A DNA stretch of 64,000 nt, taken from assembly GCF_003992065.1 (NCBI RefSeq), contig NZ_RQUZ01000009.1:1-64000 (forward strand), in the 5' to 3' direction. Each line of letters starts with the position of its first letter. The stretch's first letter is position 1. The position numbers and the translations under genes are program-made. This stretch comes from Veillonella seminalis (GTDB lineage Bacteria; Bacillota; Negativicutes; Veillonellales; Veillonellaceae). The notes under the pieces were generated by a model, which searched no databases, was not told the origin of the DNA, and saw only the letters and a list, made by a program, of their open reading frames with translations. This document shows positions 56,050 to 59,802 of this stretch, one piece after another.

Positions 56050-56670
56050 ATGCTTTTTCAAACGCCCTATTCTGATTTGTCGACTAATGCTATAGTTCAA
56101 TTAGCTCAAACCGGAGATAAAGCGTCACTTAATCAATTATGCAAACAATATGAAGGATTAATACATAAATACGCACATGTCAGTGCCATACAATGCGAAT
56201 CGACTGATATGGAAAGTATGCTTTGGGAACTGTTTATACGTGCCGTTAAAGAATATGATTTAAACGGCGATATTCCCTTCTCCGGTTTTGTCAAAAGCCG
56301 CATCAAATACGGTCAATACAATGCTTTTAAAAAACTGCGTAAACAATGGCAACGGGAAACGTTTATTATGAACACGCCTACCGACGGCGAAGATGGTGCC
56401 ATGACCTTTGAGGAGATTTTGGCCCCCTCAGACTCCGCCGAATCAATCGCCCTAGCCAATGTTAATAAAAAAGCCGTCGCTCATGCATTCAAAAGACTCA
56501 TGCCGGCTCAGCAAAAGCTACTCAGTGATTATTATATTAACGATATTCCTCTGGCTCGGCTTGCTAAACAGTACGGCATCAGCCGACAAGCCATGCAGCA
56601 ACATAAGAATAGAGCCTTAGCAGCACTAACAGTATTCTTTAACGAAGAATTGAGGAAATATAATGATTAG
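56050..56670 (+). CDS. sigma-70-like sigma factor
   Basis: 206 residues; ribosome-binding site AAAGAGG. Region 2: KASLNQLCKQYEGLIHKYAH ... MESMLWELFIRAVKEYDLNG, a typical sigma-70 region 2 helix pair. Region 4 HTH: LMPAQQKLLSDYYINDIPLA then RLAKQYGISRQAMQQHKNRA. It resembles the small sigma factors of phages and of competence/ComX-type regulation. It overlaps the lysozyme gene by eight bases, so the two are translated together. Targets are unknown. Confidence 0.85.
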   Translation: MLFQTPYSDLSTNAIVQLAQTGDKASLNQLCKQYEGLIHKYAHVSAIQCESTDMESMLWELFIRAVKEYDLNGDIPFSGFVKSRIKYGQYNAFKKLRKQWQRETFIMNTPTDGEDGAMTFEEILAPSDSAESIALANVNKKAVAHAFKRLMPAQQKLLSDYYINDIPLARLAKQYGISRQAMQQHKNRALAALTVFFNEELRKYND

Positions 56671-57235
56671 ACACTATGGAGTTGATGTGAGTGAACATAA
56701 CGGAATCATCGATTGGCGAGAAGTTCGTGATGCAGGAATCGAATTCGCTATCATACGGCTGGGCTATGGCCGCGGTCACCTGGACAGCCGTTTCTACGAA
56801 AATGTAAACGGTGCTATAAACGCCGGTTTGAGTATCGGTGTATATTATTATTCATATGCTAATAATTGCCATGATGCTCAAGCAGAAGCTGCTTTTGCCA
56901 CCCATATATTAACCGATTGCGGTATCATACCGGCCAAACTTGCCATGGGCCTTTGGTATGATGTGGAAGAAGCCCCTTATTGGAATACGCAGCAAATTAC
57001 CAATCGTTGCAGTGCCTTTATCAATACTGCGTGGCAAGCCGGTTACGCTTATGCCGGCGTATATGCCAATCTGGATTGGTGGACCAATCATATCGACGGT
57101 GCGCAGCTGGCCTGTCCTAAATGGTGTGCTCAGTATAATAGAACTTGCGATCTTCCATCGACTCACATGTGGCAGTATACCGATTCACTGAGGATTGGTG
57201 AGAGTTTATTTGACGGAGATGTGTTGTGGTCGTAA
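56663..57235 (+). CDS. GH25 family lysozyme
   Basis: A muramidase of 190 residues with no signal peptide. YGVDVSEHNGIIDWREVRDA (catalytic Asp near the N-terminus), FAIIRLGYGRG, and GLWYDVEEAPYW with the catalytic Asp-x-Glu pair. It has only the catalytic domain, with no cell-wall-binding repeats. The gene lies in the sigma factor transcript. Without a signal peptide it would need a holin or cell lysis to reach the wall, as phage endolysins do. Confidence 0.9.
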   Translation: MIRHYGVDVSEHNGIIDWREVRDAGIEFAIIRLGYGRGHLDSRFYENVNGAINAGLSIGVYYYSYANNCHDAQAEAAFATHILTDCGIIPAKLAMGLWYDVEEAPYWNTQQITNRCSAFINTAWQAGYAYAGVYANLDWWTNHIDGAQLACPKWCAQYNRTCDLPSTHMWQYTDSLRIGESLFDGDVLWS

Positions 57236-57463: not shown

Positions 57464-57532
57464 ATGAATGTATTCGAAACGTTATCTCTAATGATAGCTT
57501 TTGCTACTCTAGTGGTCTTAATTCTTAAATGA
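57464..57532 (+). CDS. holin-like type I toxin peptide
   Basis: A 22-residue peptide beginning MNVFETLSLMIAFATLVVL, that is, a short polar start, one hydrophobic helix and a C-terminal Lys. It has a perfect ribosome-binding site AAGGAGGTGAG. The pattern M-x-x-(F/Y)ETL-x-x-M...FAT is the signature of the putative holin-like toxins (TxpA/BsrG/Fst-related group) of Firmicutes, which depolarise or disturb the membrane when overproduced. A convergent promoter and shared terminator complete a type I locus. Confidence 0.75.
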   Translation: MNVFETLSLMIAFATLVVLILK

Positions 57533-57743: not shown

Positions 57744-57842
57744 TTACCAAATATAATGAATCAATAGATAGAGGCCAATCTTGGTGAAAACAATTAATAG
57801 CATCATAAATTTGACAACAATGCCAACAACGGATTTTAGCAC
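57744..57842 (-). CDS. possible 32-residue membrane peptide
   Basis: A GTG at 57842 lies nine bases after AAAGGAAG and opens 32 codons with a strongly hydrophobic helix (VVGIVVKFMMLLIVFTKIGL). It is about 50 bp downstream of the XRE gene stop. A longer reading overlapping that gene in another frame is unlikely. The small size makes this tentative. Confidence 0.35.
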   Translation of the reverse strand: MLKSVVGIVVKFMMLLIVFTKIGLYLLIHYIW

Positions 57843-57891
57843 ATAGAGCTTACTTCCTTTAATTTTTTTATTCAACTTTGTAAAAAGATTG

Positions 57892-58197
57892 TCAAATAGG
57901 TGATTTTCTAAACTTATCGAATTGTTCTTCCCATAGATCCATTTCTCGGAGTAATTGCTCTTCATCGTCAGAGATTTCCAGTAGCATACGCACATTGATA
58001 TTCAATCCATTTGCCAACGTTATAAGCATATCTATCGAAAGATTATCGTTATAGCTGCCGCGTTCTACTTTATTGATAGTACTGCGGCTCATATTGACTC
58101 TGTCTGCCAATTCCTGTTGTTTTAAACCGCGCAGCGTCCGATAAAAAGCGACCTTAGCGCTGATGAGTTTCAATAGTTGTTTCAATGTATATGACAT
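57892..58197 (-). CDS. XRE-family HTH regulator (copy A)
   Basis: 101 residues, start ATG behind GGGGAGG. The HTH_3 domain covers residues 11-70 (FYRTLRGLKQQELADRVNMS, RSTINKVERGSYNDNLSIDM), followed by an acidic helix. It is a paralogue of the regulator at 59548, sharing YRTLRGL.Q.ELA and the NKVERG core. Upstream at 58276 is a dyad also found before the 58611 gene, so this is probably the repressor acting on both. Confidence 0.88.
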   Translation of the reverse strand: MSYTLKQLLKLISAKVAFYRTLRGLKQQELADRVNMSRSTINKVERGSYNDNLSIDMLITLANGLNINVRMLLEISDDEEQLLREMDLWEEQFDKFRKSPI

Positions 58198-58275
58198 AAG
58201 ATAAACCTCCCCAAAAGTATGTAGTGTGCAAAACCAACAATATATTTTGTCACTAATACCATATCAAATGAGACC

Positions 58276-58290
58276 GACATAGGGTTGTCC
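58276..58290. promoter_or_regulatory. operator-like dyad, copy 1
   Basis: GACATAGGGTTGTC, a dyad similar to the perfect one at 59024-59039, lies 79 bp upstream of the copy A XRE start. The stretch 58198-58459 has no gene that I can support. Confidence 0.5.
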
Positions 58291-58459
58291 TACCAAAGAG
58301 GTCATTCATCTTTTTCTTATGTTTAGTATGCCATAATTTTGATTTTTATGGTGTACATAAATAGGCAACTTTAGTTAATCTTTAATTAAATATTCAGCAT
58401 AACGTATCCACTTTATATTGACTAAATTAGCAGCTACTTGCCAAATAAATGTTTTTATA

Positions 58460-58514
58460 AAAAAGAGCCCCGACAATATACAGACATAAATCTATACGAT
58501 TGTTGAGGCTCTTA
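58460..58514 (-). terminator. terminator after the 58611 gene
   Basis: On the minus strand AAGAGCCTCAACAAT pairs with ATTGTCGGGGCTCTT and is followed by TTTT. The loop is 21 bases. Confidence 0.8.
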
Positions 58515-58581
58515 ATCTAAATTTAACCTTAGTATGAACTAAACCTTAATCTAAACTAAACTCTTAGTCCAAACTAAACGC
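58511..58581. repeat. four degenerate 18-bp tandem repeats
   Basis: Units of the type AACTAAACCTTAATCTA recur with an 18-bp period between the 58611 gene and its terminator; the leftmost is the most diverged. They have no spacers, so this is not CRISPR. Confidence 0.65.
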
Positions 58582-58610
58582 TTATTTCCCTATATTCTTT
58601 TTTCATACAA

Positions 58611-58946
58611 CTAAATGACTTCTTCTTTTACAGTAAAGCCAATTACAGACTTACTTGATTCCCCTTTTACCGTAATAAACATTGCATAATCACTTTCATT
58701 ACCAATCGGATACATTTTGAAAAAAGCGCCTTTATCTTCAGCGCTTGATTCACTGACTTCACCAATATCTACTTTGCCGTTTTTAAGTGAAGCAATGTGT
58801 GTATTGATCAAATAATCCTTGGCAACCTCTCCAGAGTTAAAAGTTTTAATAAATTGGTTGGCTACAAACCATGTTTGGCTTTTATCGCCATCAACTTTAT
58901 GCATTGCATTGGCCAACAGTACAAAGACAATATCATGTTTTTCCAT
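58611..58946 (-). CDS. unrecognised 111-residue protein
   Basis: The ATG at 58946 is right for GGGAGGGTG; earlier codons lie in the promoter. A soluble, acidic product beginning MEKHDIVFVLLANAMHKVDG, with two beta-rich halves (AFFKMYPIGNESDYAMFITV). No motif recognised. Its promoter region contains the perfect dyad GGACATAGGGATGTCC, shared in form with that of the XRE gene next to it, so it is probably under XRE control. Confidence 0.75.
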   Translation of the reverse strand: MEKHDIVFVLLANAMHKVDGDKSQTWFVANQFIKTFNSGEVAKDYLINTHIASLKNGKVDIGEVSESSAEDKGAFFKMYPIGNESDYAMFITVKGESSKSVIGFTVKEEVI

Positions 58947-59023
58947 AGTAACACCCTCCCGGCAAAAATTAATTAGTAAACATAAACTAATTCTTAAGTC
59001 ACTAATATAATAGCAAGACAACC

Positions 59024-59039
59024 GGACATAGGGATGTCC
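59024..59039. promoter_or_regulatory. operator-like dyad, copy 2
   Basis: GGACATAGGGATGTCC has perfect 6-bp arms and lies where the -35 of the 58611 gene should be (minus-strand -10 candidate TATTAT near 59010). Confidence 0.55.
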
Positions 59040-59042
59040 CAA

Positions 59043-59082
59043 TAAAAAAAGCAGGCCAAAACTAATACCGGTTTAACCTGCT
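59043..59082 (-). terminator. terminator after the 59093 gene
   Basis: AGCAGGTTAAAC pairs with GTTTTGGCCTGCT (G-U pairs) and is followed by seven U on the minus strand. Confidence 0.8.
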
Positions 59083-59092
59083 GTAAATTTTC

Positions 59093-59425
59093 TTATTTAT
59101 TTTTCACAATATCATCTAACTTAGTAAGTAATTTATCCGTTGCTTCCGAATTATCAAAATCACGTTCTTCAATGCCTGCAAACAGCTCGAAAAAAAGCTC
59201 GTCTAAACACGCCTCTACACGAGACTCTGTAAATGGTGTAACATTAGCTGCCACATCTTCAATCTTATTAAAAACTTTCTCAATATTCTTGTCGAATTGC
59301 GCAACATCAACTAATTCATCATCTGTAAACGATCTGTCTAACAAGTCCGTCGTATCAGTTAATGACTGTTTGATCTTCTGTTTCTTGCGTTGTAATGCTT
59401 TTTCAAAATCAATAACATCTGCCAT
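59093..59425 (-). CDS. unrecognised 110-residue acidic helical protein
   Basis: ATG at 59425 behind AGTAGG; sequence upstream of it is non-coding leader. MADVIDFEKALQRKKQKIKQ opens a highly charged, helix-forming protein with many Asp/Glu and Lys (DDELVDVAQFDKNIEKVFNK). No cysteine motif of note, no membrane segment. It has its own terminator. I do not recognise it; the charge pattern would fit a small adaptor or inhibitor, as speculation. Confidence 0.7.
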   Translation of the reverse strand: MADVIDFEKALQRKKQKIKQSLTDTTDLLDRSFTDDELVDVAQFDKNIEKVFNKIEDVAANVTPFTESRVEACLDELFFELFAGIEERDFDNSEATDKLLTKLDDIVKNK

Positions 59426-59547
59426 AAAGTACCTACTTTCCATACTGCAAATAACTGAATATGGGAAACTATAAGCTATCACAAGCTTAATACCGGATAG
59501 ACATTACTGCCTTGTCTTAAGCATTATATTATCACAAAATAGTACTG

Positions 59548-59802
59548 TTAGAACAATACTTTCTTATCCGCTTCGGTTATAGTCAGAAAATATGTTACGT
59601 CTACATCTAAACCTTCAGCAATATTCAATAACATAGCAATTGATACATTCTGATTATAGGCACCACGTTCCACTTTATTTAAAGTGCTGGGACTAATGCC
59701 GATTTTTTCGGCCAGTTCGCGTTGCGTCAAGCCCCGCAGAGTACGGTAATAAGTCACCTTGGCGCCAATACACTTAAATAAACTGTTTTTTTGTTCATCC
59801 AT
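59548..59802 (-). CDS. XRE-family HTH regulator (copy B)
   Basis: 84 residues from the ATG at 59802 (MDEQKNSLFK) behind GAGGAG. HTH_3 domain: YYRTLRGLTQRELAEKIGIS, PSTLNKVERGAYNQNVSIAM, followed by a short acidic end. Paralogous to the 57892 regulator. The C-terminal acidic tail of copy A is missing here. An imperfect dyad with ATGAA/TTCAT arms lies at 59848-59860 in its promoter region. Confidence 0.87.
   Translation of the reverse strand: MDEQKNSLFKCIGAKVTYYRTLRGLTQRELAEKIGISPSTLNKVERGAYNQNVSIAMLLNIAEGLDVDVTYFLTITEADKKVLF

Follow-up and report, generated by a model that had tools for sequence, protein, structure and literature searches.

A conserved GACA-N6-TGTC dyad at a fixed distance from the predicted -10 element in a small class of Veillonella promoters

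Introduction

A short dyad stands before two neighboring genes of Veillonella seminalis, one encoding a small protein that we call U and the other an XRE regulator, copy A. This raises the question of what the dyad does, how widely the arrangement occurs in the genus, and which protein would read it. The window analyzed here is the 64,000-nucleotide stretch at positions 1-64,000 of contig NZ_RQUZ01000009.1 (134 kb; genome, 2.25 Mb). A preliminary description of this DNA had proposed two paralogous XRE repressors, a dyad shared by U and copy A with a different element at the second XRE, a candidate regulon of small unknown proteins, and, in the short genes each with its own terminator, a likeness to an accessory regulatory or defence-accessory island. 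We compared the locus across seven genomes of the genus, namely its own (G000), G001, Veillonella sp. KGMB01456 (G002), V. intestinalis DSM 105313 (G003), V. magna DSM 19857 (G004), Veillonella sp. R32 (G005), and V. ratti ATCC 17746 (G006). The wider collection comprised 60 genomes, own included, with 21 of the family outside the genus.

Results

Two paralogous XRE regulators and their neighbors

Copy A (57892..58197, minus strand) has 101 aa and is 93-94% identical in V. ratti, and copy B (59548..59802, minus strand) has 84 aa and is 98.8% identical in V. ratti and KGMB01456. Both are XRE regulators of the Pfam family HTH_3, with scores of 48.6 bits for A and 57.9 bits for B at a cut-off of 23, and protein search aligns them at 51% identity over 78 aa or 53% over 76 aa, which bears out their proposed paralogy. 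No relatives of these XREs were confirmed in viral contigs. Gene U (58611..58946, minus strand) encodes 111 aa, and a protein search of the 60 genomes (own included) found it in its own genome and V. ratti (67% identity) only. The U protein has zero matches in Pfam, PADLOC, NCBIfam, and PHROGs, and its AlphaFold2 model (mean pLDDT 58.7) was too weak for use. A phage or plasmid origin of U was set aside, as no relative was found among viral contigs, phages, and plasmids. Sequence comparison places a 110-aa gene (59093..59425, minus strand) between copy B and the U promoter. In V. ratti, 81 codons of this gene are missing in frame, which leaves 29 codons with the first and last parts kept; by eye, the KGMB01456 counterpart likewise has 29 codons.

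The proposal that each gene has its own terminator holds in part. A hairpin with a T tract follows U and the genes at 59093 and 60121, and those of U and the 59093 gene fold in V. ratti as well; the hairpin 3' of U (58460..58520, minus strand) has a folding energy of -26.4 kcal/mol and a z score of -6.9. A pattern scan returned no terminator after A or B, and the same scan missed the hairpins of U and the 59093 gene. Upstream of copy B, the GACA-N6-TGTC-type site is not present. There, as had been described, a different element is found, a footprint of the form TGACATAAATGA-N5-TCATGTANCACA that is conserved in three species (by eye).

The dyad occurs at two places in the genome

The dyad has the consensus GGACA[T/A]CCCTATGTC(C) and lies 5' of both U and copy A, in agreement with the preliminary description. 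In the window, GACATAGGG has two copies, at 58276 and 59025, against an expectation of 0.25, and 2 of 100 shuffles reach this number; GACA-N6-TGTC has no further occurrence across the 64 kb. Pattern search and conservation define dyad 1 as GGACATCCCTATGTCC (59024..59039, minus strand), 16 bases with perfect arms GGACAT/ATGTCC in the U promoter, and dyad 2, in the gene-strand reading, as GGACAACCCTATGTC(G) (58276..58290, minus strand) in the copy A promoter. The distance from site start to ATG is 78-79 bp for both genes. In the genome-wide scan, GACAWCCCTATGTC without mismatch was found at these two places only in 2.25 Mb, both 5' of genes, so that the exact motif is not frequent at random positions. 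The same genome holds one near-copy with one mismatch and 11 with two. Among the 60 genomes, exact GACAWCCCTATGTC is restricted to V. seminalis and V. ratti, and matches with one mismatch are common, being present in 26. An altered copy, GGACAACATTATGTT (C1:223867), precedes a third V. seminalis gene, which encodes a membrane protein (C1:223962-224735). A small ORF that overlaps dyad 2, noticed by eye, was set aside, since two replacements between species are no coding evidence. Judged from its sequence, the dyad is a true, small, and conserved regulatory element, ordinary in kind.

The arms and the promoters are conserved, and the downstream genes appear to have been exchanged

In V. ratti, one 6-kb contig holds B, the short gene, a dyad, U, a second dyad, and A in the same order, and thus both sites are kept with their genes. 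The dyad of the V. ratti U promoter is GGACAACCCTATGTCC. Between V. seminalis and V. ratti, the A and T at position 6 are exchanged between the two sites, which indicates that the center of the dyad is free and its arms are kept. Identity between the two species is 93% for the U promoter (61 bp) and 95% for 161 bp around the copy A site; coding identity is 76% for U and 84% for A (69% at the third codon positions of A), and the 211-bp spacer between U and A has 41% (gaps counted) or 66%. In addition, when compared with V. ratti in 40-bp steps, the 80 bp upstream of dyad 2 (58300-58379) show 95-100% identity, versus the 69% at third codon positions of A, and it is possible that they contain an additional regulatory element.

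The swapped position also bears on whether the dyad acts as RNA, as a hairpin or part of a terminator. GGACATCCCTATGTCC is indeed among the terminator-scan matches. However, no T run follows dyad 1, a separate terminator hairpin directly precedes it, and position 6, at which an A/T exchange would disrupt base pairing, varies freely and is swapped between species, which makes an RNA element very improbable.

KGMB01456 lacks U and A. Its order is B, the short gene, a terminator, the altered dyad GGCCACCCCTATGTCC as the counterpart of the U-promoter dyad, and a gene for a 262-aa membrane protein. The window retains the last 38 codons of a gene of this type after copy A (57747..57860, minus strand; 38 aa, 79% identity in protein search). 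In V. ratti, a frameshifted copy of the membrane-protein gene lies on another contig (contig 3), and its site has decayed. In the lineage of the window, U and A, each with a dyad promoter, would have displaced most of the membrane-protein gene. This appears to be a case of a promoter kept in place while the downstream gene was exchanged.

Eleven promoters share one geometry

A search of the seven genomes with the dyad only (GGACA-N6-TGTC) gave 53 rows, palindromes counted twice. It reached loci that had not been sought by gene, namely a membrane-protein homologue in G001 and, in V. magna, an XRE, a zinc-ribbon protein, and a WYL-domain regulator; the zinc-ribbon gene adjoins the XRE, and the WYL site is separate. 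Alignment of these loci with the U, A, and KGMB01456 promoters revealed a -10-like hexamer at a constant distance. The resulting class contains 11 promoters in five of the seven genus genomes, with exact GGACA-N6-TGTC in eight and an altered form in three. The genes behind them are U and A (each in V. seminalis and V. ratti), four membrane-protein homologues, and the V. magna XRE, WYL regulator, and zinc-ribbon protein. Two members were brought in by other means: the V. seminalis contig-1 promoter (one mismatch) was found via a composite pattern that included the -10, and the V. ratti membrane-protein promoter was added by reading upstream of the frameshifted copy. When membrane-protein homologues were searched independently by gene, the element was found upstream in four of four full or frameshifted genes (V. 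seminalis, G001, KGMB01456, and V. ratti), altered in V. seminalis, KGMB01456, and V. ratti, the last having lost the left arm.

In all 11 promoters, TAnnnT begins 12 bases past TGTC or its altered form, at positions 28-33, and in nine it is preceded by TGn, with TG at positions 25-26. At 17-base spacing, the -35 hexamer has only 0-2 of 6 matches to TTGACA throughout the class. With TGn in nine and a poor -35, the class is predicted to consist mostly of extended -10 promoters, copy A having a rival canonical pair as well. For U, the predicted -10 is TATTAT (59007..59012, minus strand) in TGCTATTAT, derived from the fixed spacing of the 11 promoters, with no -35 match. For copy A, promoter alignment points to TATGGT (58258..58263, minus strand) in TGATATGGT as the candidate -10 at the fixed spacing. 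The competing copy A promoter is TTGATA-17-TATATT at 58267-58239, which scores 10 of 12 in both V. seminalis and V. ratti; this pair competes seriously with the extended -10, and dyad 2 would then sit near -50. Near four of the 11 sites there are canonical -35/-10 pairs that score 9 or more of 12.

Several comparisons delimit the class. Among 30 of the 53 exact-dyad readings that were examined, TGnTAnnnT was present in three, all listed promoters, and TAnnnT in none of the 27 others, a set in which several palindromes are counted in both directions and one regulon site appears in reverse. When a matrix trained only on the four promoters of U and A was used to score the seven held out, three outscored all 1,854,794 background positions, and the remaining ones were beaten by 3, 14, 22, and 142 background positions (background loci partly overlapping). 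The V. magna zinc-ribbon promoter is the weakest member of the class. By eye, the ribosome site at the zinc-ribbon and WYL genes is so close that a different -10 would hardly fit.

A model built from the 11 promoters (R1) recovers them at E 1e-7 to 0.005, by construction, and finds nothing further below E 0.08 in the genus; with 150 of some 720-860 first-look candidates scored per genome, weak members may be missed. Ten weaker rows in the genus have E values of 0.09 to 1.2, one of them being the V. magna WYL site read in reverse. These were not accepted as members, since the five inspected loci all lie within or over coding frames. With 150 of some 650-860 candidates scored per genome, the two genomes free of sites gave two rows at E 0.44 and 0.48 (V. 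intestinalis) and none (R32), and 20 of the 21 family genomes outside the genus gave nothing up to E 0.05. A match in the remaining one (G008, E 0.04) has a fitting -10 but was rejected, since such an E value is expected by chance in a search of 28 genomes. Viral contigs contained no instance of one strict form of the composite promoter. In the seven genomes, the composite pattern with zero or one mismatch gave 12 matches, comprising nine listed promoters and three others, and with two mismatches gave 74 matches versus 164 for the reversed control. As there is no enrichment at two mismatches and three of the 12 best rows fall outside the list, the class rests on its best members.

The likeness of the 11 promoters might be a matter of descent, one promoter piece having been carried with exchanged gene cassettes and no live common regulator. 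The U promoter occupies the place of the KGMB01456 membrane-protein promoter, the U and A promoters have TATTAGTGAC in common past the -10 at equal spacing, those of G001 and KGMB01456 share the leader sequence GGGGTGATTTTATATGCTCAAAAG past the promoter, and the V. ratti membrane-protein gene is frameshifted with the left arm of its site lost. However, the three V. magna promoters have little in common with the others beyond GGACA, TGTC, and the -10, with the center free, and conserved arms around a free center suggest contact with a protein. Descent by itself is thus a distinctly unlikely account.

Membrane-protein genes and the proposed defence link

A leader, GGATxTxGGGGTGATTTTATATGCTCAAAAG, is common to the membrane-protein genes of KGMB01456 (L078:5239-5420) and G001 (L141:4190-4318), whose proteins are only about 22% identical. 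It matches no Rfam family. Pairing of this leader with CTTTTGAG further downstream seems possible in KGMB01456 (by eye). Three of the membrane proteins have no Pfam match; the KGMB01456 protein has none in PADLOC, NCBIfam, or PHROGs, and that of V. seminalis has none in NCBIfam. Beside the G001 gene, repeats at L141:6382-8404, with many ORFs containing QHCLPLAVLK or FNTASGKQCCN, resemble a CRISPR array, and a neighboring gene (L141 5195-6178) appears Cas1-like by eye.

Two genes follow copy A in V. ratti, one for a WYL regulator and the other for a protein that matches the candidate defence model PDC-M40B (PADLOC, E 6.6e-32). This neighborhood hints at a defence link, in V. ratti only. PADLOC, run on four window proteins, gave HTH models only for A and no match for U or for the products of the genes at 59093 and 54497. 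A defence island, as first suggested, is not apparent from these four proteins. A WYL protein is unlikely to be the common regulator, as it was found in two of seven genomes.

Elsewhere in the window, a sigma-70-family factor gene overlaps a GH25 lysozyme gene at 56050-57235 (plus strand), and a similar pair is found close to the membrane-protein gene of KGMB01456 and of V. ratti. A 22-aa ORF, MNVFETLSLMIAFATLVVLILK (57464-57532, plus strand), matches Pfam Hol_Tox (E 4.2e-8) and is accompanied by a BsrG-like RNA match (E 0.003, under the gathering score) that recurs in KGMB01456 (E 0.018). The two likely form a type I toxin-antitoxin pair.

An XRE dimer as the candidate binder

If the -10 hexamer is placed at -12 to -7, the dyad would span -39 to -24 with its center at about -31.5. 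The half-sites, GACA at -38 to -35 and TGTC at -28 to -25, would be 10 bp apart, which is one helical turn, and a protein bound there would occupy the position of sigma region 4. This geometry would suit a helix-turn-helix dimer on one face of the DNA, covering the -35 region. On balance, and with slightly better than even confidence, we take the dyad to be the operator of a dimeric protein, most likely a small XRE of the A/B family, in promoters that have a -10, mostly extended, and lack a -35 in its usual position.

Copy A is a plausible binder. Its targets would be its own gene, neighboring U, and possibly the membrane-protein gene of contig 1. An A/B-family XRE lies in the same cluster as the sites in four of the five site-bearing genomes, and the site stands 5' of the XRE's own gene for copy A and the V. 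magna XRE. Alternatively, the dyad could be bound by another regulator, one of the genus core, with few targets among accessory genes. The targets are indeed varied (membrane protein, WYL regulator, zinc-ribbon protein, XRE, and U), and the G001 promoter is intact without a neighboring A/B-family XRE. Copy A is also absent from KGMB01456, where the promoter is present as in G001, and no A/B-family XRE lies beside three site-bearing loci (G001, V. seminalis contig 1, and V. ratti contig 3). In G001, the closest A/B-family XRE (45-49% identical) is elsewhere, by a large surface-protein-like gene. Against a core regulator stand the XREs within the site clusters and the two XRE genes that bear the site themselves, as self-regulating XREs often carry a site in their own promoter. 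Taken together, a core regulator is possible but unlikely.

The dyad is not a general operator of the A/B family, as it is absent around 58 of the 60 family loci. Around these family XREs of the collection, the exact dyad was found at two loci (V. ratti and V. magna), with four sites versus 1.95 expected, and V. intestinalis and R32 have similar XREs and no site. By eye (L080, L081, L084), the A/B-family XREs of G001 and R32 adjoin a surface-protein-like gene of ~890 aa, and that of V. intestinalis adjoins a secreted-type protein.

An XRE dimer on the dyad could act in either direction. As a repressor, it would block RNA polymerase; as an activator, it could substitute for the absent -35 in the manner of CII at lambda Pre. 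We lean slightly toward repression by an XRE, since two of the site-bearing genes are themselves XREs and would regulate themselves. The poor -35 keeps activation possible.

Discussion

A profile of A, B, and their relatives, compared with the PDB, matched SinR, CylR2, restriction controller proteins, and the 434 repressor, the two top rows being designed repeat proteins. The half-sites of 434 are likewise 10 bp apart. The Veillonella dyad departs from the sites of 434- and SinR-type XRE repressors in its half-site and in standing where the -35 would be.

The helix-turn-helix of ComR is also XRE-type. In streptococcal comX and comS promoters, as outlined in PMC5131891 and PMC4072589, ComR binds GACA/TGTC half-sites at promoters with a TATAAT -10 and no -35. 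The Veillonella promoters resemble this ComR box in their GACA/TGTC half-sites, the putative helix-turn-helix dimer, and the -10 without a -35. Computed from the consensus given in PMC4072589, the ComR box has the form GACA-N4-TGTC, a distance of 23 bases to the -10, and a center at about -41.5, whereas the Veillonella dyad has N6, 12 bases to the -10, and a center at about -31.5, which sets it apart from a ComR box. ComR and other RRNPP regulators combine a helix-turn-helix with a TPR domain, whereas A (101 aa) and B (84 aa) match only helix-turn-helix models in Pfam. The A/B profile matched 34 solved structures, none of them ComR.

CII recognizes direct TTGC repeats around -35, in contrast to the inverted repeat found here. 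The promoter it serves, lambda Pre, is characterized in PMC2613000 as having a TGn/-10 element, a very poor -35, and a need for CII. The Veillonella class is like Pre in its extended -10 and very poor -35, a likeness known here from sequence geometry.

Of the regulon first proposed, a shared dyad before accessory genes stands, with conservation, the fixed -10, and the altered copy at a third gene in its favor. A wider reading, which we put forward tentatively and hold to be improbable, is a chromosomal regulon restricted to this branch of Veillonella, in which a small XRE dimer on GACA-N6-TGTC replaces the -35 and activates extended -10 promoters, and which recruits changing accessory genes by carrying its promoter along. 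Such a system, if real, would be the host's equivalent of lambda CII, with half-sites like those of ComR placed about one helical turn nearer the start site. Among the Veillonella titles listed from open-licence literature, none concerned such a site or regulon. Few ways of replacing a -35 element are known, and activation by an XRE dimer at about -31.5, should it occur, would be a further one. Overall, the promoter class offers a small, testable regulon of one clear geometry.
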